Shown here piece after piece: positions 51,925-64,000 of a stretch of DNA of 64,000 nt. The stretch covers positions 22,046 through 86,045 of the forward strand of contig CASDWJ010000019.1 in NCBI GenBank assembly GCA_949284695.1, written 5' to 3'. Source of the DNA: an uncultured Christensenella sp. GTDB lineage: Bacteria > Bacillota > Clostridia > Christensenellales > UBA3700. The notes under the pieces were generated by a model that saw only the letters and a list, made by a program, of their open reading frames with translations, made no database searches and had not been told where the DNA came from. The translations under genes and the position numbers were made by a program. The first letter of the stretch is position 1. Each line of letters begins with the position of its first letter.

Positions 51925-53589
51925 TTACTTTTTCAAATGCTCTCCCACACCGTTGACATACCTGAATCCTCCTGCCGTGACGGTGAGAAGCGGGCAGGAA
52001 GCAAACGAGTTTATCTCAAGTCCGACGATATCCTCGGGAATGCGGAGCTCCCTTAAGTTTTCGCAACCGAAGAAGCCTCCTTCGGTCATTTTCTTGACGC
52101 TGTCGGGGATAAAAACTCTCTCCAGCGACGTACAGCCGTTGAACACAGCCTCTCCCAATTCTTCGATGCCGTACGGGATAAGGGCTTCCACAAGCGATAT
52201 GCAACCTCTGAAAAACGCTTCGGGGATCCTTTTTAAGCCGGACGGCAATCCGACGCTTTTTATCGAAGTGCACTCCCTGAACACCGCGGCGCCCGCTTGG
52301 TCGAGCGTCTGAGGAAAGACTACTTCTTCCAGAGCCGCATTCTCGCGGAAAGCACCGGCACCTATGCGCCTGACACAAAACGGCAAAACTATCTTCTTTA
52401 TCGAATTGTTTCTGCAGATTGCGTTGTCGCCTATTTCCACAACTGGTTTGCCGCTTATCCTCGCGGGGACCGTCACGGTTTCGGAAGTCCCGTTGTAAAA
52501 TGTTATTTTCACTCCGTCGTTTACGATCTCGTAATGGAAATCGTCATATATCCCGCTTAAAGCCACGACCCCGAGTTTCCTGCCAGTCTCAGCTATCTCC
52601 TCTATCGCGTCGCATACCGCGGGTACTGCAGATCGGGATATGAATTTGCATCTGTCGTCAAGCAGTGCGGAACAATTTTTTCCTTTTGAACTGCCGACGT
52701 ATCCTTGCAGAGGTTTTCCCCCGATATGGATCGGAAATATCGGTACTTTGCATTTTTTTGCCTGCAACAACTCTTTCTCTACAGCGTCTGACGAGAGCGA
52801 ATCTTTACTGACGTACAGCAACATTGCCACGCAGTTATGTCTTGCAATTACTCCGAGAGCCTCCTCGTCCCACTTTTTGCCGTACATGATAGATTTGTCG
52901 TACCACAACGCGATACCGTGCCTTTTGAGTTCTACGATATCGCTGAGTACAAGGTCTCTGTCTCCGTGGGAATAACTTATAAAAACAAACTTTTCTTCTC
53001 CGACCGCCGCCTCGGGCAAGCTGTCCAATGCCGTCTTATGTCCTTTTCCCAGCTCAACGCCTCTTACCAAGTCTGCCAGATCCTTCCTCTTTCTGTCGAC
53101 AGACGCGTCGTCGTGATAGCCGAGTAAAAACAATGCGGTTATCTCCGACGTTGTGCCCACAACTGTGCGCGCCTCTTTCTCGACGCACCATACGTCACAC
53201 ACGATCAGACTGCCCAAACCGATATCGACCGCTTTCAGACTCATATTCTCGAGACACGCACCTATAGAAATGTAATCGCTTTGCGGCCACTCTTTTTCAA
53301 CGGGAGAACACACAGCTATCACTACGGGAGCATTCTTCGTTATCCTTGCGGATTCTCTGACGCTTCCGCTTTTGTCGCTTTGCAAATCCGCCCAATCGCA
53401 CATAAGTGACGCAAGCTTGTCTGTCTCCGCTTTGCCGAGTCTGACAAAAGACCAGGGTTGACGGTTTTTTGCCGACGGAGCTTCTGTCCCCGCCCTGAGC
53501 ACAGCTTCGATATCTTCTTCTTTAACTTCTTTGCTCAGAAAATCCCTTACGCTTTTTCTGAACTTTACAGCTTCGTCTAAAAACAGCAT
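51925..53589 (-). CDS. Nitroreductase-TIR-leucine-rich-repeat fusion protein
   Basis: 554 residues from ATG 53589; the frame is open 30 codons more but through the promoter. Residues 5-165: nitroreductase fold (RKSVRDFL for FMN phosphate, APSAKNRQPWSFV, IGACLENMSLKAVDIGLG). Residues 199-335: TIR-like domain (KFVFISYSHGDRD, HGIALWYDKSIMYGKKWDEEA, AMLLYVSKDSLSSDAVEKELLQAKK with a candidate catalytic Glu, PIFPIHIG). Residues 360-545: BspA-type LRR_5 repeats (CVRRIGAGAFRENAAL, LKRIPEAFFRGCISL, EELGEAVFNGCTSLERVFIP, MTEGGFFGCENLRELRIP). No signal peptide, so cytoplasmic. TIR domains can hydrolyse NAD or make signalling nucleotides; the mix with a sensor-like LRR suggests an immune or stress role. 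Monocistronic. Confidence 0.9.
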   Translation of the reverse strand: MLFLDEAVKFRKSVRDFLSKEVKEEDIEAVLRAGTEAPSAKNRQPWSFVRLGKAETDKLASLMCDWADLQSDKSGSVRESARITKNAPVVIAVCSPVEKEWPQSDYISIGACLENMSLKAVDIGLGSLIVCDVWCVEKEARTVVGTTSEITALFLLGYHDDASVDRKRKDLADLVRGVELGKGHKTALDSLPEAAVGEEKFVFISYSHGDRDLVLSDIVELKRHGIALWYDKSIMYGKKWDEEALGVIARHNCVAMLLYVSKDSLSSDAVEKELLQAKKCKVPIFPIHIGGKPLQGYVGSSKGKNCSALLDDRCKFISRSAVPAVCDAIEEIAETGRKLGVVALSGIYDDFHYEIVNDGVKITFYNGTSETVTVPARISGKPVVEIGDNAICRNNSIKKIVLPFCVRRIGAGAFRENAALEEVVFPQTLDQAGAAVFRECTSIKSVGLPSGLKRIPEAFFRGCISLVEALIPYGIEELGEAVFNGCTSLERVFIPDSVKKMTEGGFFGCENLRELRIPEDIVGLEINSFASCPLLTVTAGGFRYVNGVGEHLKK

Positions 53590-53606
53590 ACGACACCTCT
53601 CACAAT

Positions 53607-53635
53607 ATTTTACATTATGCGATCGGATCTGTAAA
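53607..53635 (-). promoter_or_regulatory. Promoter of the nitroreductase-TIR-LRR gene
   Basis: Minus strand TTTACA (53635-53630), 17 nt, TAAAAT (53612-53607). Confidence 0.75.
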
Positions 53636-53746
53636 CGATATTGCGATAAATAACTTATAATTTTACAAGTCGGTTTCAAAAAAGAGACGCATAGTACGCC
53701 TCTTTTCGACCTATATAAAATTCATCCTACAAAACTATGCGATGTT

Positions 53747-55073: not shown

Positions 55074-57242
55074 TTAGCGTCTCACACTGTTGATTATTGC
55101 AACGATACAAACGCCCACGTCGGCGACTACGGCAAGCCACATCATCGGATCGAATACTATCGAAAGCACCATGATCGCGAGTTTTACGGCAAGAGATATG
55201 ACGATATTGCCCGTCACGCGGTTTTTGGTCGTCTTTGCGACCACAAAAGCCGCAGGCAGTCCGGACACGGAGCCTCCCGACAATACCATGTCGCTCGCCT
55301 CGACCGACGCGTCGTTGCCGAGACCTCCGACGCATACGCCGAGATTTGCCGCCTTTATCGCGGGAGCGTCGTTTAATCCGTCGCCGACGAACATCACGTT
55401 TGCCCCTTCAGCCTTGCATTTTTCCACATAAGCGTATTTATCCTCAGGCAGTAGCGACGCATGATATTCTTCTATCCCGACCTCATTCGCGACGTGTTCC
55501 GCCGTCTTTTCGCCGTCGCCTGTCAGCATTATCACCCTCTTGCCCTGCGCTTTGAGAGCGGACACGACCTCTTTTGCGTCCTCTTTCACCGTATCGCTCA
55601 GAGTCACGTATCCGAGCGCTTTGCCGTCTTCTGCGAAGTACACGACGCTGCCGAACCCTTCGTGAACGTCGGTCACGACTACGCCGTTGTCGTACATCAG
55701 CCTGAGATTGCCGCCAAGAAGTTTTCTGCCGTTGTACGTGCATCCGACTCCCCTTCCCGAGTATTCGCGGTAATCTTCTATCCCCGCGACGTCGCGGCTA
55801 CCGACGTACCTCAGCACAGACAGCGCGATCGGATGGGTAGACATGCTCTCGCATACCGCGGCGACTTCAAGGAGACGTTCCTCGCCGACTCCTGCGGCTG
55901 GCACCGCGCTCGTGACTTCGAAAACGCCCTTGGTAAGCGTGCCCGTCTTGTCCATACATATTACGTCTATGCCTCTCATCGCCTCGAGGTAATTGCCGCC
56001 CTTGACGAGTACGCCCTTTGCCGAGCATTTGCCTATGCCCGCAAAAAACGCGAGCGGTATGGATATCACGAGTGCGCACGGGCAGGATATCACGAGAAAT
56101 ACGAGCGCTTTTTTGAGCCATATCTCTGTCAGAGCCGTCGCGTACGAGTCGTAGAACAACGGCGGGATAAACGCCACTATAAGCGCCAGAGCGAACACCG
56201 CGGGAGTGTAAACTGAAGCGAATTTCGTGATCAGCTTCTGCGCCTTGGGCTTGTTGTCCTGCGCTTCTTCCACGAGTTTCAATATCTTAGATGCCTGCGT
56301 GTCCTCGAATTTTTTCGTTATCCTTACCCTGATCGTGTCTCCCGTATTGACGGTGCCGCCCGACACTTCGCTGCCCTCGCTCACCGCAACTGGTACGCTT
56401 TCGCCCGTCATACTGCTGCAGTCGACCGCGCTTTCGCCGTCTTCGACCACGCCGTCCGACGGGATCTTCTCTCCGCGCCTAACTATGACAACGTCGCCTA
56501 CGGCGAGAGACTCGCTGTCGACTTCTTCGGTGTTCTCTCCTACGACGCGCAGGCATCTGTCGACCTTGAGATCGAGCAGTCTGACGATATTTCCTTTAGA
56601 TCTCGCGATCGCCGCATCCTGCAAAGTCTCTCCTATACAATACAGAAGCATAACAGCGACGCCTTCGGCATACTCGCCGAGCGCCATCGCACCTATCGAC
56701 GCAACCGTCATAAGCATATTTTCGTTGAACACGTCGCCTCTGAACACGCCTTTGACCGCCTGAAAAACGTACCCGTATCCGACGACGACGTAGGATACGC
56801 AGTGCAGCACTATCGAAGCAATCCCGAGACCGCCGCTCGGGTCGTCCTTTGCGCCGAATCCGCACATCGCCGCCATCATCAGAAGTACCGCCGACACGGC
56901 GATCTGCATTATCGGCTTTATGAATTGAGATATGTTGAGTTTTCTGCTTTCGGAGATATCGACGTGTCCTTTCTGCGCGCAACACTCGCAACCGCCGTCA
57001 TCGGAACGGTCATGGTCGTGCCCGTGACAATGCCCGCAGGAACAACCCTCCGCCTCGCCGTGACCGCGCCCGTGTTCGTGACCGTGCTTATGATCGTGAC
57101 CGCAGTCATGACCGTGCTTATGATCGTGACCGCAGTCGTGACCGTGCTCGTGATCGTGACCGCAGGAGCAAACTCCCGCGCCGTGATCGCATTCTTCATG
57201 CGCGCCTTCGACTCTCTTGTCTATATTTTTTTTATCGTCCAT
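55074..57242 (-). CDS. Heavy-metal P1B-type ATPase with His-rich N-terminus (ZntA/CadA class)
   Basis: 722 residues. Residues 18-90 are packed with His, Cys, Asp and Gly, including a decapeptide HDCGHDHKHG repeated about 2.5 times, in place of an HMA domain. The pump core is complete: TGES (279-282), metal site CPC (387-389) in helix 6, phosphorylated Asp431 in DKTGTLTKG, then the HP motif (THPIAL) and GDGLNDAPA. It exports Zn, Cd, Pb or Co at the cytoplasmic membrane at the cost of ATP. CPC fits both Cu and Zn/Cd groups; the His-rich end and class favour Zn/Cd, while the CsoR partner favours Cu. It starts 7 nt after csoR. Confidence 0.93.
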   Translation of the reverse strand: MDDKKNIDKRVEGAHEECDHGAGVCSCGHDHEHGHDCGHDHKHGHDCGHDHKHGHEHGRGHGEAEGCSCGHCHGHDHDRSDDGGCECCAQKGHVDISESRKLNISQFIKPIMQIAVSAVLLMMAAMCGFGAKDDPSGGLGIASIVLHCVSYVVVGYGYVFQAVKGVFRGDVFNENMLMTVASIGAMALGEYAEGVAVMLLYCIGETLQDAAIARSKGNIVRLLDLKVDRCLRVVGENTEEVDSESLAVGDVVIVRRGEKIPSDGVVEDGESAVDCSSMTGESVPVAVSEGSEVSGGTVNTGDTIRVRITKKFEDTQASKILKLVEEAQDNKPKAQKLITKFASVYTPAVFALALIVAFIPPLFYDSYATALTEIWLKKALVFLVISCPCALVISIPLAFFAGIGKCSAKGVLVKGGNYLEAMRGIDVICMDKTGTLTKGVFEVTSAVPAAGVGEERLLEVAAVCESMSTHPIALSVLRYVGSRDVAGIEDYREYSGRGVGCTYNGRKLLGGNLRLMYDNGVVVTDVHEGFGSVVYFAEDGKALGYVTLSDTVKEDAKEVVSALKAQGKRVIMLTGDGEKTAEHVANEVGIEEYHASLLPEDKYAYVEKCKAEGANVMFVGDGLNDAPAIKAANLGVCVGGLGNDASVEASDMVLSGGSVSGLPAAFVVAKTTKNRVTGNIVISLAVKLAIMVLSIVFDPMMWLAVVADVGVCIVAIINSVRR
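57081..57170. repeat. Three 30-bp tandem repeats in the metal ATPase gene
   Basis: Units at 57081-57110, 57111-57140 and 57141-57170 (ACCGTGCTTATGATCGTGAC start). They code for the His-rich decapeptide on the minus strand and could expand or contract by slippage. Confidence 0.88.
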
Positions 57243-57249
57243 AAAAGCC

Positions 57250-57534
57250 TCACTTGGATTTTATATATTTGCCTATACTGCCGACGAGATTTTCCACCGT
57301 CTTTTCGTATTCTCCGCTCTCGAGCCCCTCTTTCACGCAATGCCCGACGTGCCCGAACAAAACGTCTTTCGCCACGCCGTCCAACGCGCATCTGACCGCG
57401 CTGATCTGAGTCAGGATGTCGTCGCACGGGCGGTTTTCAAGCACCATTTTGCTAATGCCGTTGACCTGCCCCTGTATGCGGTTGAGTTTTTTCTCGATGC
57501 TGACAGAAAGTCCGTCCTGAAGTTTGCAATCCAT
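57250..57534 (-). CDS. csoR: CsoR/RcnR family metal-sensing repressor
   Basis: 94 residues, full length. All-helical DUF156 domain: KKLNRIQGQVNGISKMV, RPCDDILTQISAVRCAL, and GHVGHCV. Ligands Cys37, His62 and Cys66 form the Cys-His-Cys set of Cu(I)-sensing CsoR proteins. The apo-protein binds G/C-tract operators and leaves when metal binds. Two such operators flank its promoter. It is the first gene of the operon with the P-type ATPase. Confidence 0.95.
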   Translation of the reverse strand: MDCKLQDGLSVSIEKKLNRIQGQVNGISKMVLENRPCDDILTQISAVRCALDGVAKDVLFGHVGHCVKEGLESGEYEKTVENLVGSIGKYIKSK

Positions 57535-57545
57535 AATTACCTCCT

Positions 57546-57562
57546 ATACCCTCATGGGGTAT
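57546..57562. promoter_or_regulatory. CsoR operator, downstream copy
   Basis: ATACCCTCATGGGGTAT, dyad of the TACCC/GGGTA type, just downstream of the expected start site of csoR. Confidence 0.8.
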
Positions 57563-57578
57563 ATTGTTTTCTATATAC

Positions 57579-57607
57579 AATATATACCCCGTGGGGGTAT
57601 TTGTCAA
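57579..57607 (-). promoter_or_regulatory. Promoter and upstream CsoR operator
   Basis: Minus strand TTGACA (57607-57602), 17 nt, TATATT (57584-57579). The spacer is filled by the dyad ATACCCCGTGGGGGTAT (57584-57600), so repressor and polymerase exclude each other. Confidence 0.88.
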
Positions 57608-57745
57608 CAGTTTTCGAGACTTATTAATTACAATTTACTATAATTATCTTAGTTAACAAAATAGATATACAAAAATACGCTTTTTAATTTTTATGACATG
57701 TCAATTAATATATAAAATATAAATGCCACTATATATTCTATCGTC

Positions 57746-59053
57746 TCATTTTTTTGAATATTCAAGCATCCAGTCTAGCCATGACTTAATGGTCGACGCT
57801 CTTCTAGACACGGTTGACGACGACAATGACGAATAGGTTTTAGTAATTTCTTCTTCTATTTCTTTTTTAGTGATTTTTGATGCCTGAGTTTTTGATTTTA
57901 AGTATAAAACGTTAAATATATTCTTTCTATTTAATTGCTCAAAAATATCTTTTTCGATTAAATCTCTGTTTCCATCGAATTGTAAAAGGTTTTGAGAAAC
58001 TGTATGCTGTTGCGTTATATAATTTAAAAACTGTAGCGCAGATAAATAATATGCGACCTGTCTCTCGGTGCCAAGATTTAAATCGTCTCGTATTTTTTGT
58101 ACATCTTTTATATATTCATCATTACATTTGCATGCAAAAGTTATAAGTTTGTTTATATCGTTTACTTGAGGTAGCGAATTTAACACACCCCATATTATTA
58201 CTTCTTCACCGGTGTGTCTTGAATCCGCCTTGCAATTTATCATTCTCAAAGTGGATATTTTGGTTACATTATAGTAGACGCGATACTTTGAATCCTGTGA
58301 AAATAAATCAATAACCTTATCCGTAGCATTATTACTTATTATTACGGTTGCACCTTTATCAATAGCTTTATCGCAACACTCTTTTAACTCTACAAAATCT
58401 AAAAATGAAAACCCTTTCATTTGATATTTTGTAAATCCATCATCGTCGTTATAATCATACGGCGGATCAACGTATATGATATCCCCGTCCCTCGCTTTCT
58501 CTATTGCATGTTCATACGATTGATTTAAAATCATAATTTCATTATTAGGATCCGAAAGATAATTATGAACTTCTGTTATGGTTTGCTCATCGCAAATGGT
58601 CGGATTTGTATATCTCCCGATAGGAGTATTAAACTCACCTTTCCCATTAACTCTATAAAGCCCGTTATAGCATGTCCTATTTAAAAAAATCATCCGTGCT
58701 GCACGCTCAACGTCTGTAACATATTGCCATTCCGGTTCACGATCTCTTCTACGAGTCTCATAATAAAACTCATCGCTGTCTACACGATATTGACGCTCGT
58801 ATTCCTTCAATCTGTTTATTAGATTGGTATAACTTTCAGATTTAATAACATTATAAGCGTTCATTAAATCAGAATTCAAGTCATTAACAATTGCTTTTTT
58901 TGGCTTTAATTCAAAAAACACAGCTCCGCCGCCCAAAAATGGCTCTATGTAGAAAAATGAATCGTCACATTCGTTAATCGATTCTTTTACAAATTTAATA
59001 ATTGTGGGCAGGATCTGTCTTTTACCTCCTGCCCATTTCACAAAAGGTTTCAT
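57746..59053 (-). CDS. D12-class DNA adenine-N6 methyltransferase
   Basis: 435 residues. N-terminal KPFVKWAGGKRQILP, motif I EPFLGGGAVFFEL (AdoMet binding), IVNDLNSDLMNAY, catalytic motif IV YVDPPYDY, and RYTNPTICDE are as in M.DpnII/Dam. It methylates adenine, with GATC-like sites as the default guess. The domain should end near residue 285; the last ~150 residues (from NDINKLITFACKCNDEYI, with EEEITKTYSSLSSSTVSRRASTIKSWL as a winged-helix-like end) resemble tails fused to restriction proteins and could read a target or act as partner. Strongly AT-rich. Last gene of the foreign operon, 23 nt after the DUF6339-like gene. The ribosome site is weak. Confidence 0.93.
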   Translation of the reverse strand: MKPFVKWAGGKRQILPTIIKFVKESINECDDSFFYIEPFLGGGAVFFELKPKKAIVNDLNSDLMNAYNVIKSESYTNLINRLKEYERQYRVDSDEFYYETRRRDREPEWQYVTDVERAARMIFLNRTCYNGLYRVNGKGEFNTPIGRYTNPTICDEQTITEVHNYLSDPNNEIMILNQSYEHAIEKARDGDIIYVDPPYDYNDDDGFTKYQMKGFSFLDFVELKECCDKAIDKGATVIISNNATDKVIDLFSQDSKYRVYYNVTKISTLRMINCKADSRHTGEEVIIWGVLNSLPQVNDINKLITFACKCNDEYIKDVQKIRDDLNLGTERQVAYYLSALQFLNYITQQHTVSQNLLQFDGNRDLIEKDIFEQLNRKNIFNVLYLKSKTQASKITKKEIEEEITKTYSSLSSSTVSRRASTIKSWLDWMLEYSKK

Positions 59054-59076
59054 TTACTATCTCGAACTTTATTATA

Positions 59077-59814
59077 TCATTTATTATACAATTCCGTCAT
59101 TTTATTGTAAACCATATTTTCGATATCATTTTCCTCTATTACGTCTAGCAATCTTACGCTACCTATTTGAGAAATATATTTTGCTATTTCCGCATAAAAA
59201 TCATTATTTTCATAGCCGTATTCATCTACAGCTTTTTTCTCTGCTCTTATTATTCCTCTTACCAAATGCTTTTCAGACGAAAAAGATCGCCAAGTTAAGT
59301 TCCTGTATCTCTCAGGAGATTGTATTATCCACCTCGTTAATTCATATTTATCGGGTTTATATTCCTCAACAGTTAAGGCCACTCTATAAAAACATCTTGA
59401 CAGCACGCCAAACATTAATCCCCTTCTGACGCCTTGTTCAAAAGTCCAATGATCTTTTATCGTTGACGCACCTTTTATCTTCATCATAGATTTTGTCACT
59501 TTATAAAATTTTTCAAAATAAAGCCAAAGCCAAAACTTTTCATCCGTCAAAATATAATTTGGCAAGTCTTTTAGCGCTTCATATAGAATTATTGAATTTT
59601 TAAAATCTATTTCCTTGTCCACAAGATCCGGATTCTCAGACAGCTCAATATCATCAATCATATAATTCTTTTCAACAAAAATCGGTTGTTTAAAATCTTT
59701 ATACACCCAATCGTTCGTCTCGTTGCTCTTAATTTTATCCGTTACGATTTCTATATTTTTCTTTAAATATGCAAGTGCCGAGTCGCTCATCAGCTTAATA
59801 TTTATTTTATTCAT
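59077..59814 (-). CDS. DUF6339-like protein of the methylase operon
   Basis: 245 residues from ATG 59814, chosen over ATG 59820 because GGAGG is 9 nt from it but only 3 nt from the other. The pattern DFKNSIILYEALKDL, DEKFWLWLYF, EQGVRRGLMFGVLSRCFYRVALT and KYELTRW matches from memory the DUF6339 family, which I associate with DNA-modification and restriction loci. All helical, cytoplasmic, no catalytic motif evident. The start overlaps the end of the upstream gene by 8 nt, so translation is coupled. Confidence 0.78.
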   Translation of the reverse strand: MNKINIKLMSDSALAYLKKNIEIVTDKIKSNETNDWVYKDFKQPIFVEKNYMIDDIELSENPDLVDKEIDFKNSIILYEALKDLPNYILTDEKFWLWLYFEKFYKVTKSMMKIKGASTIKDHWTFEQGVRRGLMFGVLSRCFYRVALTVEEYKPDKYELTRWIIQSPERYRNLTWRSFSSEKHLVRGIIRAEKKAVDEYGYENNDFYAEIAKYISQIGSVRLLDVIEENDIENMVYNKMTELYNK

Positions 59815-60721
59815 TTGCATTTTCCTCCTTGTTTTCACGGATTACTTCAATAATATTTACCAAGGACGGACCAAACGGCTTTCCAAGCAATTCTTGAGCC
59901 AATGTCACCGACGGAATATCCAAAAAACTTTCTTTAGTTAATTCTGTTGAAAAAGTTTTCTTATATCCATTTTTAACCGAATAAAACCATGTATAATCGC
60001 CACAAACATCATCCAAATCATAATCTTCATCAGACAATGATCTTTTTATTGTTGAAAATATTTCAGCCAACACTGGCACTAACAACATATTAAAAAACAC
60101 TTCTTTGAAATTAGTCGAATTGAAAACTATGCTGTAATTTTCATACTGCTCCCGAGGTAAATAAATAATAATTTTCTTCCCTTCATAGAACGCATAATAA
60201 GCATCACTCGGCTTTAAATTCTCATCGACTACAATATTAAAAATAGATCTAACTACATTATCGTCTGTATCTAAATGATCAAATTTAACAGTTACACCGT
60301 CGTTTACCGCCAAAACATCATATTTGTCTATTTGAAAAGTTATGCCTTTATAATCATCCAAAAACTCATCGGAACTAATAGAAAAATCTTTTTTTGCATA
60401 TGCAAACATTGATATTTCGACCTTACCGTTAAAATCATCTGATTCAAGTACTATTGCTCTCCCCAATGAATTCGTCAAAGGATAACATTTCCTAAAAACA
60501 GTATACGAGCATTCAACAATACACACCACTCCAATAAGACCGGCATCATAAAGATCCATTATATATTTACTATTCGTTTCGAAATGTATATTATTTAATT
60601 TTAATTCTTCTTTTGTTTTCTCACTATCAAAACACAGTTGAAAACACTTATTAAAAAAAGTCGAATTAATTAAATTATCATTTAATACGGGATAAGGATA
60701 CAGCTTATTCTTTACTTGCAT
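59807..60721 (-). CDS. Unknown protein of the methylase operon
   Basis: 304 residues. Starts with a YPYPVL motif, then mixed alpha/beta with many Phe, Tyr and Asn (VECSYTVFRKCYPL, FQIDKYDVLAVNDGVTVKFD), and a helical C-terminal part (FFNMLLVPVLAEIFSTIKRSL...LGKPFGPSLVNIIEVI). No family is recognised with confidence and no nuclease motif stands out. The ATG lies 17 nt inside the end of the ATPase gene with GAGGT upstream, and its own end overlaps the DUF6339-like gene, so all three are coupled and probably form one complex. Confidence 0.75.
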   Translation of the reverse strand: MQVKNKLYPYPVLNDNLINSTFFNKCFQLCFDSEKTKEELKLNNIHFETNSKYIMDLYDAGLIGVVCIVECSYTVFRKCYPLTNSLGRAIVLESDDFNGKVEISMFAYAKKDFSISSDEFLDDYKGITFQIDKYDVLAVNDGVTVKFDHLDTDDNVVRSIFNIVVDENLKPSDAYYAFYEGKKIIIYLPREQYENYSIVFNSTNFKEVFFNMLLVPVLAEIFSTIKRSLSDEDYDLDDVCGDYTWFYSVKNGYKKTFSTELTKESFLDIPSVTLAQELLGKPFGPSLVNIIEVIRENKEENANE

Positions 60722-62657
60722 ACAATTTTACCTCGCTAGCAAAATAATCAGTTTGATTTGTCTTTAATTCCAATTCTATTTTTTCGCCATCTTTCATGCT
60801 GAACGGTCCACACTCCAAATCGCTATCAGATTCCATCTCTTTACCATTACATTTCAAAGAAATTATCCTCAGTTGTGTCTTTTGAGAAAGTTCATCTCCC
60901 AACATATACAGTGTAAGATAACATTTATCATTAGTTACTGGAGAAATAAATGTAATCTTATATCTGCCATCCGTTTTATCTAAAACGATAAACCTATATC
61001 TTATCCCCGCTATCTGAGCTTTTTTCATTATTATATTATCCCCTGGTTTACTTCCACCGATTTCTTCGCCAGCAGAATATCCACCTCCACTCCCGCTGTT
61101 GTGACCTGTCGGATGCAACACATCGTCACCATCATCTTCGGATTCTCCGATATCCGGCTGAACACCTGCTCCGTCATTTCTTTTAGCGTTAGCATTTCTT
61201 TCAATATTTACTGCTGGCTTGAATTCAGATATTTCTACTACTTCCTTTTCATTCATTTTTGATGAAGACTTGTCTCCTCCAATATCCCCGTTGCCCTCTG
61301 TTTCTGATAGATATTCTCCCGCGCCATACGGATCAATAATTTCTTGCACGGATGTTTTAAAACACTGCAAAACAGCATTTTCAATCTGTTCTTTTATGCT
61401 CTCGACAGTATAGTTTATTTTGTCTCTATCCGGTTGAGCTATTCGTTTAGGCTCCCATGCATTATGTTGGGGATTTTCGATTTCGCGTAGTCTTTTTCCA
61501 AGTTCGCCTCTTTCAATAATGCAAACTGCTGACGCGTTTAAATGTTTTGGCAACGAAATATCAAATATTTTCATATATGGATACCGAATCATTACACATT
61601 TATGCGTTGCCATCCATTTTGTAGTTTCATCTAATACCAAAATCTTTAAATAAGCGGTTCCATATTCTGTATCTATATCAAAGGCCTGTACATTTCCGAT
61701 ACCTCTTAAAATGTTGTATTGCGAAAGATAGTACGCTCTTTTTTTAGGCGATACATACATGTTATTATTTATTATATCTAAAACGTGATCGCCGTCCAAA
61801 CATATGTTTTGAATCTTTACAACGAGTTGTTTCTTAACAATACTCGCCATAAAAGATTCCAATACGCTATTCAGTATTTCGCTTGACCAAGAATCTTCTT
61901 TATTAAGCCCTAATATATATATATCCGTACCTTTATTTATCTCTCTATTCTTATAGCTCCTGTCCAAATTTAATAATCCTTCAGGAGGAGCATTAAAGTT
62001 GTTTTTTCCAAAATATCCATCTCCCTGAGTATAGTCTCGATGTTCATTATCAACATCGTCTAGAACAAATCCGGATATAAAATCAGCTACGCCAAAATAG
62101 CCTTTTGCACCATCCTCGGTAAACGTAGAATAGAATACGGTTTTGATTCTAGAAAGAAGAAAAGCCGCATTTTTACCAACTCCTTTAGATCCGCCTGCAG
62201 TATCACTGTTTTTATCTGATACCCCCGAAGATTTCGTCAGAGCTAAAAACTTATTATTTTTGCCGTCTTCGGATCTATCTATCCCAGTTAAGCCACTTGT
62301 ATTTGAATCACTTATTCTTAAACACTCGATATTTTTGGAATTTAATATCTTGAGCATTTTACTATATTCATTATAATATAGCGGTTGCGAAGATTTCCAG
62401 AAATCCATGCACCTGTTAATCGCCGCTTTTAATCCATCCAGATCGGGTATCTCTTCGGGAGAAATTTTAAATAGCGAAAATTCTACCGTCACTGGCTCCT
62501 CATCCGATGTTCTCGCATCTATCGAATTTTGTATTACCTCTCGTCCAAAATTACCAAAAGGATTTCTTTTAAAAGTTTCAGAATCTCCGGTACTCAATCC
62601 TTTTCTTTTTCCAAAGCCACTTGGAGCAAATCTCCACTTTAATTCATTTTCGTACAT
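60705..62657 (-). CDS. GHKL/HSP90-type (HATPase_c, MORC-like) ATPase of the methylase operon
   Basis: 650 residues. Bergerat fold: N-box FGREVIQNSIDA (Glu40, Asn44, Asp47), G1 box LRISDSNTSGL (Asp117), and G2 box GGSKGVGKNAAFLL (155-168), as in HSP90, MutL and MORC proteins. A transducer-like middle part (about 200-400) follows, then a disordered Asn/Gly/Glu-rich linker (about 450-540) and a C-terminal beta-rich domain (about 545-650). Such ATPases act as ATP-driven clamps; relatives are found in several anti-phage restriction clusters. It is the largest gene of the operon and overlaps the next by 17 nt. Confidence 0.88.
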   Translation of the reverse strand: MYENELKWRFAPSGFGKRKGLSTGDSETFKRNPFGNFGREVIQNSIDARTSDEEPVTVEFSLFKISPEEIPDLDGLKAAINRCMDFWKSSQPLYYNEYSKMLKILNSKNIECLRISDSNTSGLTGIDRSEDGKNNKFLALTKSSGVSDKNSDTAGGSKGVGKNAAFLLSRIKTVFYSTFTEDGAKGYFGVADFISGFVLDDVDNEHRDYTQGDGYFGKNNFNAPPEGLLNLDRSYKNREINKGTDIYILGLNKEDSWSSEILNSVLESFMASIVKKQLVVKIQNICLDGDHVLDIINNNMYVSPKKRAYYLSQYNILRGIGNVQAFDIDTEYGTAYLKILVLDETTKWMATHKCVMIRYPYMKIFDISLPKHLNASAVCIIERGELGKRLREIENPQHNAWEPKRIAQPDRDKINYTVESIKEQIENAVLQCFKTSVQEIIDPYGAGEYLSETEGNGDIGGDKSSSKMNEKEVVEISEFKPAVNIERNANAKRNDGAGVQPDIGESEDDGDDVLHPTGHNSGSGGGYSAGEEIGGSKPGDNIIMKKAQIAGIRYRFIVLDKTDGRYKITFISPVTNDKCYLTLYMLGDELSQKTQLRIISLKCNGKEMESDSDLECGPFSMKDGEKIELELKTNQTDYFASEVKLYASKE

Positions 62658-62669
62658 AAGTAATCTCCC

Positions 62670-62885
62670 TTATATTTCAATCCTTTTATTATTTTTTCTG
62701 TTAAGCAAAGCTTTCTTTGATTTTTGAGTAGCAAGCTCGATTTCATTAAAGATTTTTTCAATCTCTTCATCTGTGTATTCGTAAAAAGATGTATTAGTTA
62801 AATTAGTCAATTGATTCAAAAGAATAATTATCTTTGAAACCCTGTTTTCTGAAATTCTTTTGAAATTTTGTTTTTTGTTTTCCAT
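62670..62885 (-). CDS. Small conserved protein at the head of the methylase operon
   Basis: 71 residues, AGGAG before the ATG. FKRISENRVSKIIILLNQLTNLTN, then FYEYTDEEIEKIFNEIE and a basic end. This matches a short family I remember from restriction and mobile loci, with the run R-x4-R-x3-I-L...LxNLxNrxxYxYxxxxxxKIF; I know no name or function. Possibly an antitoxin-like or assembly factor. It starts 90 nt from its own promoter and the ATPase gene follows 12 nt later. Confidence 0.78.
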   Translation of the reverse strand: MENKKQNFKRISENRVSKIIILLNQLTNLTNTSFYEYTDEEIEKIFNEIELATQKSKKALLNRKNNKRIEI

Positions 62886-62912
62886 ATATAACTCCTATGT
62901 TGCTACAATAAC

Positions 62913-62941
62913 ATACTATAGCAAACAAAGTCGTTTGTCAA
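62913..62941 (-). promoter_or_regulatory. Promoter of the methylase operon
   Basis: Minus strand TTGACA (62941-62936), 17 nt, TAGTAT (62918-62913). Confidence 0.8.
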
Positions 62942-63018
62942 TACGTTTTTTGCAATATTTATGAAATATTTTTTAAATATTGTAAAATAGTTTAAAAAGG
63001 GGCTTGATAAATTTCGCT

Positions 63019-63759
63019 TTACCTCAATATCTGCTTATAAAATTTTCCTAAATAGTTGAGTGATTTATTACAATTGTTTCTAAATATGGGTTTGTCGACA
63101 TAATGATTATTTATGTATATCATCATATCTTTCCTCATTTTATCGTAAAACAAATATTCATCTAATACAAATATATTATTATATCCGCTACGAGAAAATA
63201 TCTTTGGACACAATTTATTATTAATTGTTTTTAAAAGAGTGATAACTTTATCTATTTGCTCCGGCTGCATGGATGTTGCAAATCCCATATACTCTTTAAA
63301 CTGTATCAAATTTTTCTCGGTGTAATAATTTATTACCTCAGCGATTTCACCTCTCGGTTGCCTATGTATATACAATTGGCATTCGGCCAAATTTATTCCC
63401 CATTCCGACAACAACAACTGAATTGTCCACACGGCATGAACAGAAGTATGGTTTACATTAATGAATAACCCGTAATCAAACTCTTTAAAATTACTTTTTT
63501 GCTGAGTCGAAAAAACTGCTTGTTTCCCCCAATCGTTTTTTATTGTTAACAGGCTTTCTTTTGTTTTTGGATTATATTTATTTAAAAATTCAGCCAACTT
63601 TAGAATCAATCTATTCCAACTAGCTTCTTTTATCTCGTAGTCGTCAACTTTTAATAAATATGGCGTAGAATATTCAAAATCTACCGATCGCACACTCAAA
63701 TCTATCTTATAATATCTCTTACTTTTAACATAAATTATATTATATTTTTCCTCAATCAT
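63019..63759 (-). CDS. Uncharacterised protein upstream of the methylase operon
   Basis: 246 residues. The central stretch PKTKESLLTIKNDWGKQAVF, FKEFDYGLFINVNHTSVHAVWTIQLLLSEWGI, and CQLYIHRQPRGEIAEV resembles hypothetical proteins of Firmicutes that I recall without a function. Mixed alpha/beta, no signal, no membrane helix. AT-rich like the operon downstream, from which it is separated by 133 bp and a promoter. It could be a regulator or effector of the same system or a separate cargo gene. Confidence 0.72.
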   Translation of the reverse strand: MIEEKYNIIYVKSKRYYKIDLSVRSVDFEYSTPYLLKVDDYEIKEASWNRLILKLAEFLNKYNPKTKESLLTIKNDWGKQAVFSTQQKSNFKEFDYGLFINVNHTSVHAVWTIQLLLSEWGINLAECQLYIHRQPRGEIAEVINYYTEKNLIQFKEYMGFATSMQPEQIDKVITLLKTINNKLCPKIFSRSGYNNIFVLDEYLFYDKMRKDMMIYINNHYVDKPIFRNNCNKSLNYLGKFYKQILR

Positions 63760-63903
63760 TTATTGTTTCCCCAATATCTTTTTATTTTTCGGAACTTCAT
63801 CCTTGACATCATTATGATATAACACTTTAATTTTATCTTTTCTTTGCTAAAAAATCAATAATAAATTTCCGTTTATAATAAAACACCGTTATTTAGTGAA
63901 TTG

Positions 63904-64000
63904 TCAAACCAAGTGCAACACTTTTTGCAATTCTTGTTCAAATAAATCTGCCGGTGTTTTGTACCCAAGCACTTTTTTAGGTCTGGCGTTAATTAACGCC
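63904..64000 (-). mobile_element. C-terminal end of an IS30-type transposase, cut by the window edge
   Basis: Minus-strand frame of 31 codons to the TGA at 63906-63904, reading INARPKKVLGYKTPADLF and then EQELQKVLHLV. The phrase LNxRPRKxLGYKTPxE(L/V)F is the hallmark of the IS30 family C-terminus. The rest of the gene and the far inverted repeat lie beyond the window; the near inverted repeat should be in about 63850-63900. Confidence 0.85.

Follow-up and report, generated by a model that had tools for sequence, protein, structure and literature searches.

The closest described system to the locus analysed here is PDC-M33, a candidate defence system of PADLOC-DB 2.0.0 (PDLC04582-PDLC04587), for which we found neither a paper using that name nor a published mechanism or anti-phage experiment. 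Mza systems combine a GHKL/MutL-type ATPase with a Z1 protein. A listed type II restriction-modification (RM) system contains a DUF6996-DUF6997-DUF7226 restriction enzyme (PDLC03513). The paraMORC2 family carries GHKL motifs and a later ExxxH motif, and its neighbourhoods contain methylases and Vsr, according to the available text of its description (PMC2292703, Iyer 2008). RptR is a 79-residue repressor of type I islands whose own promoter contains the three 6-bp palindromes that it binds (available text of PMC12255303). AbiR of Lactococcus is a multigene system said to need a methylase for host protection (available text of PMC2661086), and AbiRc is an SNF2 helicase (available text of PMC10925250).

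The locus lies in the window, by which we mean the whole stretch of 64,000 nucleotides from an uncultured Christensenella sp. that was analysed (contig CASDWJ010000019.1; assembly of 1.85 Mb in 46 contigs, 81% complete). Three adjacent genes, A, B and C, match the three PDC-M33 proteins in order (E 2e-130, 4e-53 and 3e-40 with the PADLOC models). Therefore, the core of this locus is not new. The PDC-M33 models lack four features of the window: a small gene S, a gene U, a palindrome array in front of S and the fusion of a methylase (MT) to DUF7226. We regard S, its array and the methylase fusion as the new parts. The features are as follows:

63019-63759, minus strand: U, open reading frame of 246 aa, found in the corresponding position of the three nearest relatives
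62954-62981, minus strand: array of three AATATT palindromes with an 11-bp period, exact match and conserved 5' of S; candidate S operator
62913-62941, minus strand: candidate promoter TTGACA-17-TAGTAT for S-A-B-C(-MT), from a scan; sites of this class are not above chance
62670-62885, minus strand: S, 71 aa, small conserved M33-locus protein, candidate autoregulator (open reading frame and conservation)
60705-62657, minus strand: A, 650 aa, probable GHKL-type ATPase, PDC-M33A, with ExxxH as in paraMORC2 (model match and motifs)
59807-60721, minus strand: B, 304 aa, PDC-M33B (model match and structure model)
59077-59814, minus strand: C, DUF6339, PDC-M33C, 245 aa from ATG (family match and structure model)
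59083-59111, minus strand: candidate separate methylase promoter TTTACA-17-TATAAT, 11/12 (promoter scan)
57746-59053, minus strand: MT, 435 aa, D12-class N6-adenine methylase with C-terminal DUF7226 (family matches)
57758-58093, minus strand: DUF7226 part of MT, residues 321-432 (family match)

An earlier note on this DNA had described five minus-strand genes, S to MT, and the open reading frame coordinates agree with it; U adds a sixth gene to this picture. We also reproduced the spacings it gave, with 12 nt between S and A, overlaps of 17 nt between A and B and of 8 nt between B and C, and 23 nt between C and the methylase gene. The 8-nt overlap holds for the ATG start of C at 59814, which affords 245 residues; an alternative GTG start would extend C to 59077-59838 and 253 residues. 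The sharp drop in composition at about 57.6 kb is real: the GC content is 50.7% in window positions 1-57600 and 32.3% in 57601-64000, a value outside the spread of 6.4-kb stretches upstream of the drop, of which the lowest has 48.3%. The claim that one promoter serves all five genes did not hold up, since candidates precede both S and the methylase gene, and positions 57200-64000 contain 40 promoter-like sites compared with 32.0 (sd 5.6) in shuffled sequences. The window methylase perhaps has a separate promoter of its own. U is the first gene seen from the contig end, which coincides with window base 64000, and matched nothing in plasmids, viral contigs, 199 other genomes of the order or a PDB profile search.

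By its motifs, A appears to be a GHKL-type ATPase. The GHKL residues D117, T120 and G122 are invariant in 92 of 92 A proteins, and the ExxxH motif is nearly so (E394 in 91/92, H398 in 92/92). The conservation of the N box and of GGSxGxGK is not independent of the sampling, because both served as search patterns for A relatives. Pfam yielded no match to A at E up to 1, and a profile comparison with MutL of related genomes aligned the N box only (E 0.008, probability 5%), so the GHKL label rests on motifs. The only match of note in a PDB profile search was that of residues near 515-613 to a beta-sandwich (E 0.0003), the others being weak or low-complexity, and we found no experimental record of A. 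Mza likewise has a GHKL-type ATPase, but the window contains no Z1 gene and A matches no Mza model. In its GHKL motifs and ExxxH, A resembles paraMORC2, and M33 loci share the methylases and Vsr of that family's neighbourhoods; this identity of A is by motif, and the available text of the paraMORC2 paper (PMC2292703) contains no B, C, S or array.

Structure models were computed for B (pLDDT 88.9, pTM 0.56, which makes its domain arrangement tentative) and C (pLDDT 94.3, pTM 0.90). B is predicted to have an N-terminal part rich in beta-sandwich and a helical C-terminal part, and C, which the earlier note had called DUF6339-like and which we could confirm as DUF6339, is predicted to be all-helical. 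The fold searches that had been proposed for these 304- and 245-residue proteins returned no nuclease fold. Against the PDB neither model matched anything at E up to 0.001, the best being fibronectin-like beta sandwiches for B (E 0.016) and a match of E 0.91 for C, and the comparison of C with BFVD gave no fold match (best 2.7). B and C, both modelled with confidence, thus resemble no nuclease, and the previous remark that they have no visible nuclease motif stands. We rejected a hidden nuclease in B or C on the basis of these models and of PDB profile searches whose matches were weak or low-complexity. The idea that C is BrxA-like received no support from structure comparison, and we found no paper using the term DUF6339. 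Family and PADLOC scans identified no restriction endonuclease among the six proteins of the window. AbiR, as far as the available text describes it, is alike in being multigene with a protective methylase; we rejected A-B-C as an AbiR system since no helicase family occurs among the six proteins, and AbiRc has no counterpart in the window operon.

A scan of genome contigs with the A alignment afforded 439 confirmed stretches. The best 80 of these, five loci from viral contigs, six from a search of 299 genomes and the window constitute the 92 loci compared here. B is present in 89 and C in 81 of them, counts which include contigs that end inside the operon, and both lie downstream of A on the same strand and in one order. 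When B alone was sought in 299 genomes of the phylum, it was found in seven, and A was found in the same seven and in one more as a weak partial match. The distribution is patchy, with A in 4 of 59 relatives (own genome included). Of 72,556 plasmid records, 28 contain a match to A with E no higher than 0.001, and in 14 of these the match spans 80% of A or more; a Priestia copy is accompanied by S and by MutH/Sau3AI-type and dcm genes, and a Ligilactobacillus copy adjoins an N-6 methylase. A, B and C co-diverge: pairwise distances correlate with r 0.945 for A-B (n 79), 0.891 for A-C (75), 0.79 for A-S (46) and 0.69 for MT-A (20), and in each case 0 of 999 permutations reached as high a value. 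Near-duplicates (L036, L060, L072, L073, L085 and L089) were left out of tree, distance and array counts.

We read the locus as a variant of PDC-M33 (paraMORC2-type) that performs methylation-gated exclusion, with A-B-C as one machine and S as its autoregulator, and we assign this reading a probability of roughly 45%. The D12 methylase, judged from its family, would mark the cell's own DNA. A would act as an ATP-driven GHKL clamp with B and C as adaptor subunits, and this machine may act on unmarked DNA by blocking it or handing it on, without a nuclease domain. S, bound to the phased AATATT palindromes of its own promoter, would restrain the S-A-B-C unit until the host DNA is methylated or infection occurs. 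Of 34 S loci, 12 have the methylase gene upstream of S, 11 have it on the opposite strand, nine have it downstream and two between S and A; hence it is mostly outside the S unit (23/34). The ATPase, the methylase link, this placement and the S switch together make the methylation-gated reading the most likely one. Counted against it are the loci in which no methylase was found, the possibility that the tree clustering described below reflects descent, an S protein with no recognised DNA-binding fold, an AT-rich array, a GHKL assignment by motifs and a window methylase located downstream of C, inside the S-A-B-C unit, as in three relatives. The earlier suggestion of a modification-based defence system built around an ATPase survives in that the locus is methylase-linked and probably defensive, but A, B and C are already a PADLOC candidate.

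The partners of A-B-C are diverse. A D12 methylase occurs alone or with the DUF6996-DUF6997-DUF7226 enzyme (six loci), and an m5C methylase occurs with an NgoFVII-like or FokI-like enzyme or with Vsr (Vsr in L014). Other loci contain type III or type I (L086) partners, TIR, or Z1 with a REase-like helicase protein. The earlier note had set this locus apart from Z1 clusters; indeed there is no Z1 gene in the window, but Z1 adjoins the same A, B and C in L009 and L060, the L009 protein matches MzaC, and a cluster relative adjoins them in L093. The A tree (86 rows, 60 labelled) follows methylase chemistry, with two changes each for D12 and m5C partners compared with about 18 in shuffles. One locus labelled "none" in this tree, L012, is properly "other", which does not affect the D12 and m5C counts. 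We take this pattern to reflect a lasting methylase partnership that was lost in some lines, though descent by itself could also have grouped loci with the same methylase type.

Methylases were detected by motif rules and by clusters, followed by family scans for part of the open reading frames. In the 41 loci flanked by 7.5 kb or more on either side, the motif rules found a methylase in 24 and family models in six more (L012, L035, L036, L055, L086 and L087, with L035 counted via its near-identical copy L036). No methylase was found in the remaining 11 of 41 (L009, L010, L013, L019, L032, L039, L040, L043, L047, L060 and L070) by scans that covered part of the open reading frames and listed 25 of 266 families. 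Hence the absence of a methylase near A, B and C is a regular occurrence, the first of two circumstances that the earlier note had named as speaking against its proposal. As to the second, an occurrence outside genomic islands, neighbours of these loci match defence models: SoFic, AbiEii, GajA and AbiD are among the matches listed for 77 neighbouring reading frames (L087 included), so that the surroundings of methylase-less loci do not all resemble ordinary chromosome. Dereplication (without L036 and L060) leaves 10 of 39 loci with no methylase. In 6 of 10 searched genomes of such loci neither a D12 nor an m5C methylase, the two classes searched, was found anywhere; the genome of L012 was dropped from this search on account of its local N6 methylase.

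These numbers, together with the diversity of the neighbours (D12, m5C, type I, type III, Z1, TIR), speak for A-B-C as an independent defence module, for instance an abortive one, which is carried along in RM loci and has no working link with the methylase, the restriction enzymes or U. A Lactococcus plasmid copy that adjoins abiG genes points in the same direction, with no methylase among the 11 features listed in an incomplete PLSDB gene table. On the other hand, the A lineage follows methylase chemistry, MT distances follow those of A, and methylase-less loci mostly also lack S: in the 39 dereplicated well-flanked loci no methylase was found in 1 of 23 with S versus 9 of 16 without it. On earlier labels, which predate the finding of S in more loci and of an N6 methylase in L012, this association had a Fisher p of 0.0003 but was not significant in a relatedness-aware pairs test (5 pairs). 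We consider the independent module a serious if somewhat unlikely alternative.

Several of these loci are of interest in their own right. L032, L039, L040, L043 and L047 form a sub-clade of the D12 branch in which A-B-C has no S, array or nearby methylase and sits before one conserved gene run. In Clostridium bovifaecis a TIR-domain protein (L070:9083-9925) is encoded directly 5' of A, and no B and no methylase were found. A protein with DUF2357 and PD-(D/E)XK_7 (L009:3399-5927) lies 3' of C in a Z1-type M33 locus.

A six-frame search of 98 loci detected S in 59, of which 55 belong to the 92 compared here; S was not found in 198 other sampled genomes of the phylum. The array was initially noticed as a conserved AT block in the four promoters of the window's clade and then tested over all S loci, including these four. 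In the first S set (200 nt), AATATT-N5-AATATT occurs exactly in 27 of 46 loci, and other AATATT spacers in 0-2 of 46, except for a spacer of 16 (= 5+11) in 17. The array often has three copies with an 11-bp period, and 39 of the 41 exact sites within 771 kb of these loci sit at an S promoter. In a wider set, 28 of 54 S loci contain the exact array compared with 0.17 expected from Markov controls (largest 1 in 100 runs), and 41 of 54 contain it within one mismatch compared with 2.27 (largest 8). The value of 28 is a low figure because L015 and L080 were scored as siteless despite having an exact site, their S start probably having been placed too far upstream. The window array is an exact match, with four matches of up to three mismatches where 0.05 are expected, and stands directly 5' of a TTGACA; several relatives have TTGAC within the array itself.

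These observations suggest that S is a fourth component beyond the M33 models of PADLOC and that the array is its candidate DNA target. The nearest precedent is RptR (PMC12255303, available text): both proteins are small (71 and 79 residues), each is a first reading frame of a methylase-linked island or unit, and both have repeated 6-bp palindromes at their own promoters, although those of RptR are TAGCTA in 9-bp repeats and those of S are AATATT with an 11-bp period. The S profile gave no sign of sequence kinship, the RptR structure 9R2Z not being among the 60 of 100 matches listed for it, all of which are weak. Alternatively, the array could play a structural part in an AT-rich promoter, as curved DNA or an UP-like element, or be bound by a protein other than S. 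A/T tracts that recur every 11 bp can cause DNA to bend, and neither family scans nor a profile search detected a recognised DNA-binding fold in S. We consider this explanation unlikely, since the site follows S: within 400 nt 5' of A, the loci first called S-negative have exact sites only in L065 and L071, both of which prove to encode S, so that no truly S-negative locus has an exact site in the vicinity of A. The same site is also shared by loci with D12, m5C and type III partners. As a search handle for new loci in related genomes and viral contigs the array failed: 49 of 59 related genomes contain two-copy sites, at about the control level (own genome 4 vs 1), and none of 74 viral stretches with the three-copy pattern encodes S, A, B or C.

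The window, L015, L016 and L017 form a starred clade of the A tree, with the gene order U-S-A-B-C-MT. U is 34-53% identical across these loci, and all reading frames in the four loci are open. The shared layout and the open frames argue that this arrangement is maintained. The L016 version of U makes up the first half of a longer protein, the rest being the C-terminal domain of c4. The large c4 protein has a match to sigma-70 region 4, and about 33 loci encode it next to A, S or C (37 when the U proteins and the L016 fusion are included in its cluster). U and c4 may fill one role. The c4 proteins have 800-1185 residues (L024:7423-10005, L066:13438-16362, L075:13463-16753 and relatives). That of L075 also matches the RNA polymerase alpha-CTD, which makes it a transcription-machinery-like protein in a defence operon.

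MT belongs to the D12/Dam family (TIGR00571, 238.6 bits; cut-off 114.85), and in 4 of 4 loci of the clade the methylase contains DUF7226 (39.9, 53.1, 56.8 and 56.7 bits; cut-off 27). Elsewhere, in six other M33 loci, this domain ends the DUF6996-DUF6997-DUF7226 restriction enzyme, which is absent from all four loci of the window's clade. The window thus shares a D12 methylase and DUF7226 with the type II RM system PDLC03513 but has no DUF6996-DUF6997 enzyme and no cognate endonuclease. A bolder, improbable version of the methylation-gated reading holds that A-B-C is a nuclease-free silencing machine, a bacterial cousin of the eukaryotic MORC clamps which traps and shuts down unmethylated incoming DNA, that MT in the window's clade took over the DUF7226 of a lost restriction enzyme, and that S and the array form a control switch of a type as yet undescribed for such systems. 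A broken type II RM system that lost its restriction enzyme, had the DUF7226 tail of that enzyme fused to its methylase and left an orphan-methylase regulator set would account for the six loci with D12 methylase and complete enzyme next to a clade with the methylase-DUF7226 fusion only, and for the lack of a PDLC03513 match in the 81%-complete genome (a weak point, as the control matched nowhere), but is quite improbable given that the layout has been maintained in four loci with U at 34-53% identity and open frames, and that D12 loci without this enzyme are common in the D12 branch of the A tree. The clade offers a clean setting for asking if a MORC-like ATPase can exclude unmethylated DNA by itself, a question that dates from the 2008 description of prokaryotic MORC relatives.

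Two observations concern the DNA before the composition drop. Window positions 57545-57600 contain two GC-rich palindromes, TATACCCTCATGGGGTATA and ATACCCCCACGGGGTAT, which resemble CsoR operators; they directly precede the gene of a CsoR-type repressor (PF02583, 57250-57534) and that of a metal P-type ATPase (55074-57242). At 51925-53679 a 584-residue reading frame encodes an unusual combination of nitroreductase, TIR_2 and BspA-type leucine-rich repeats.
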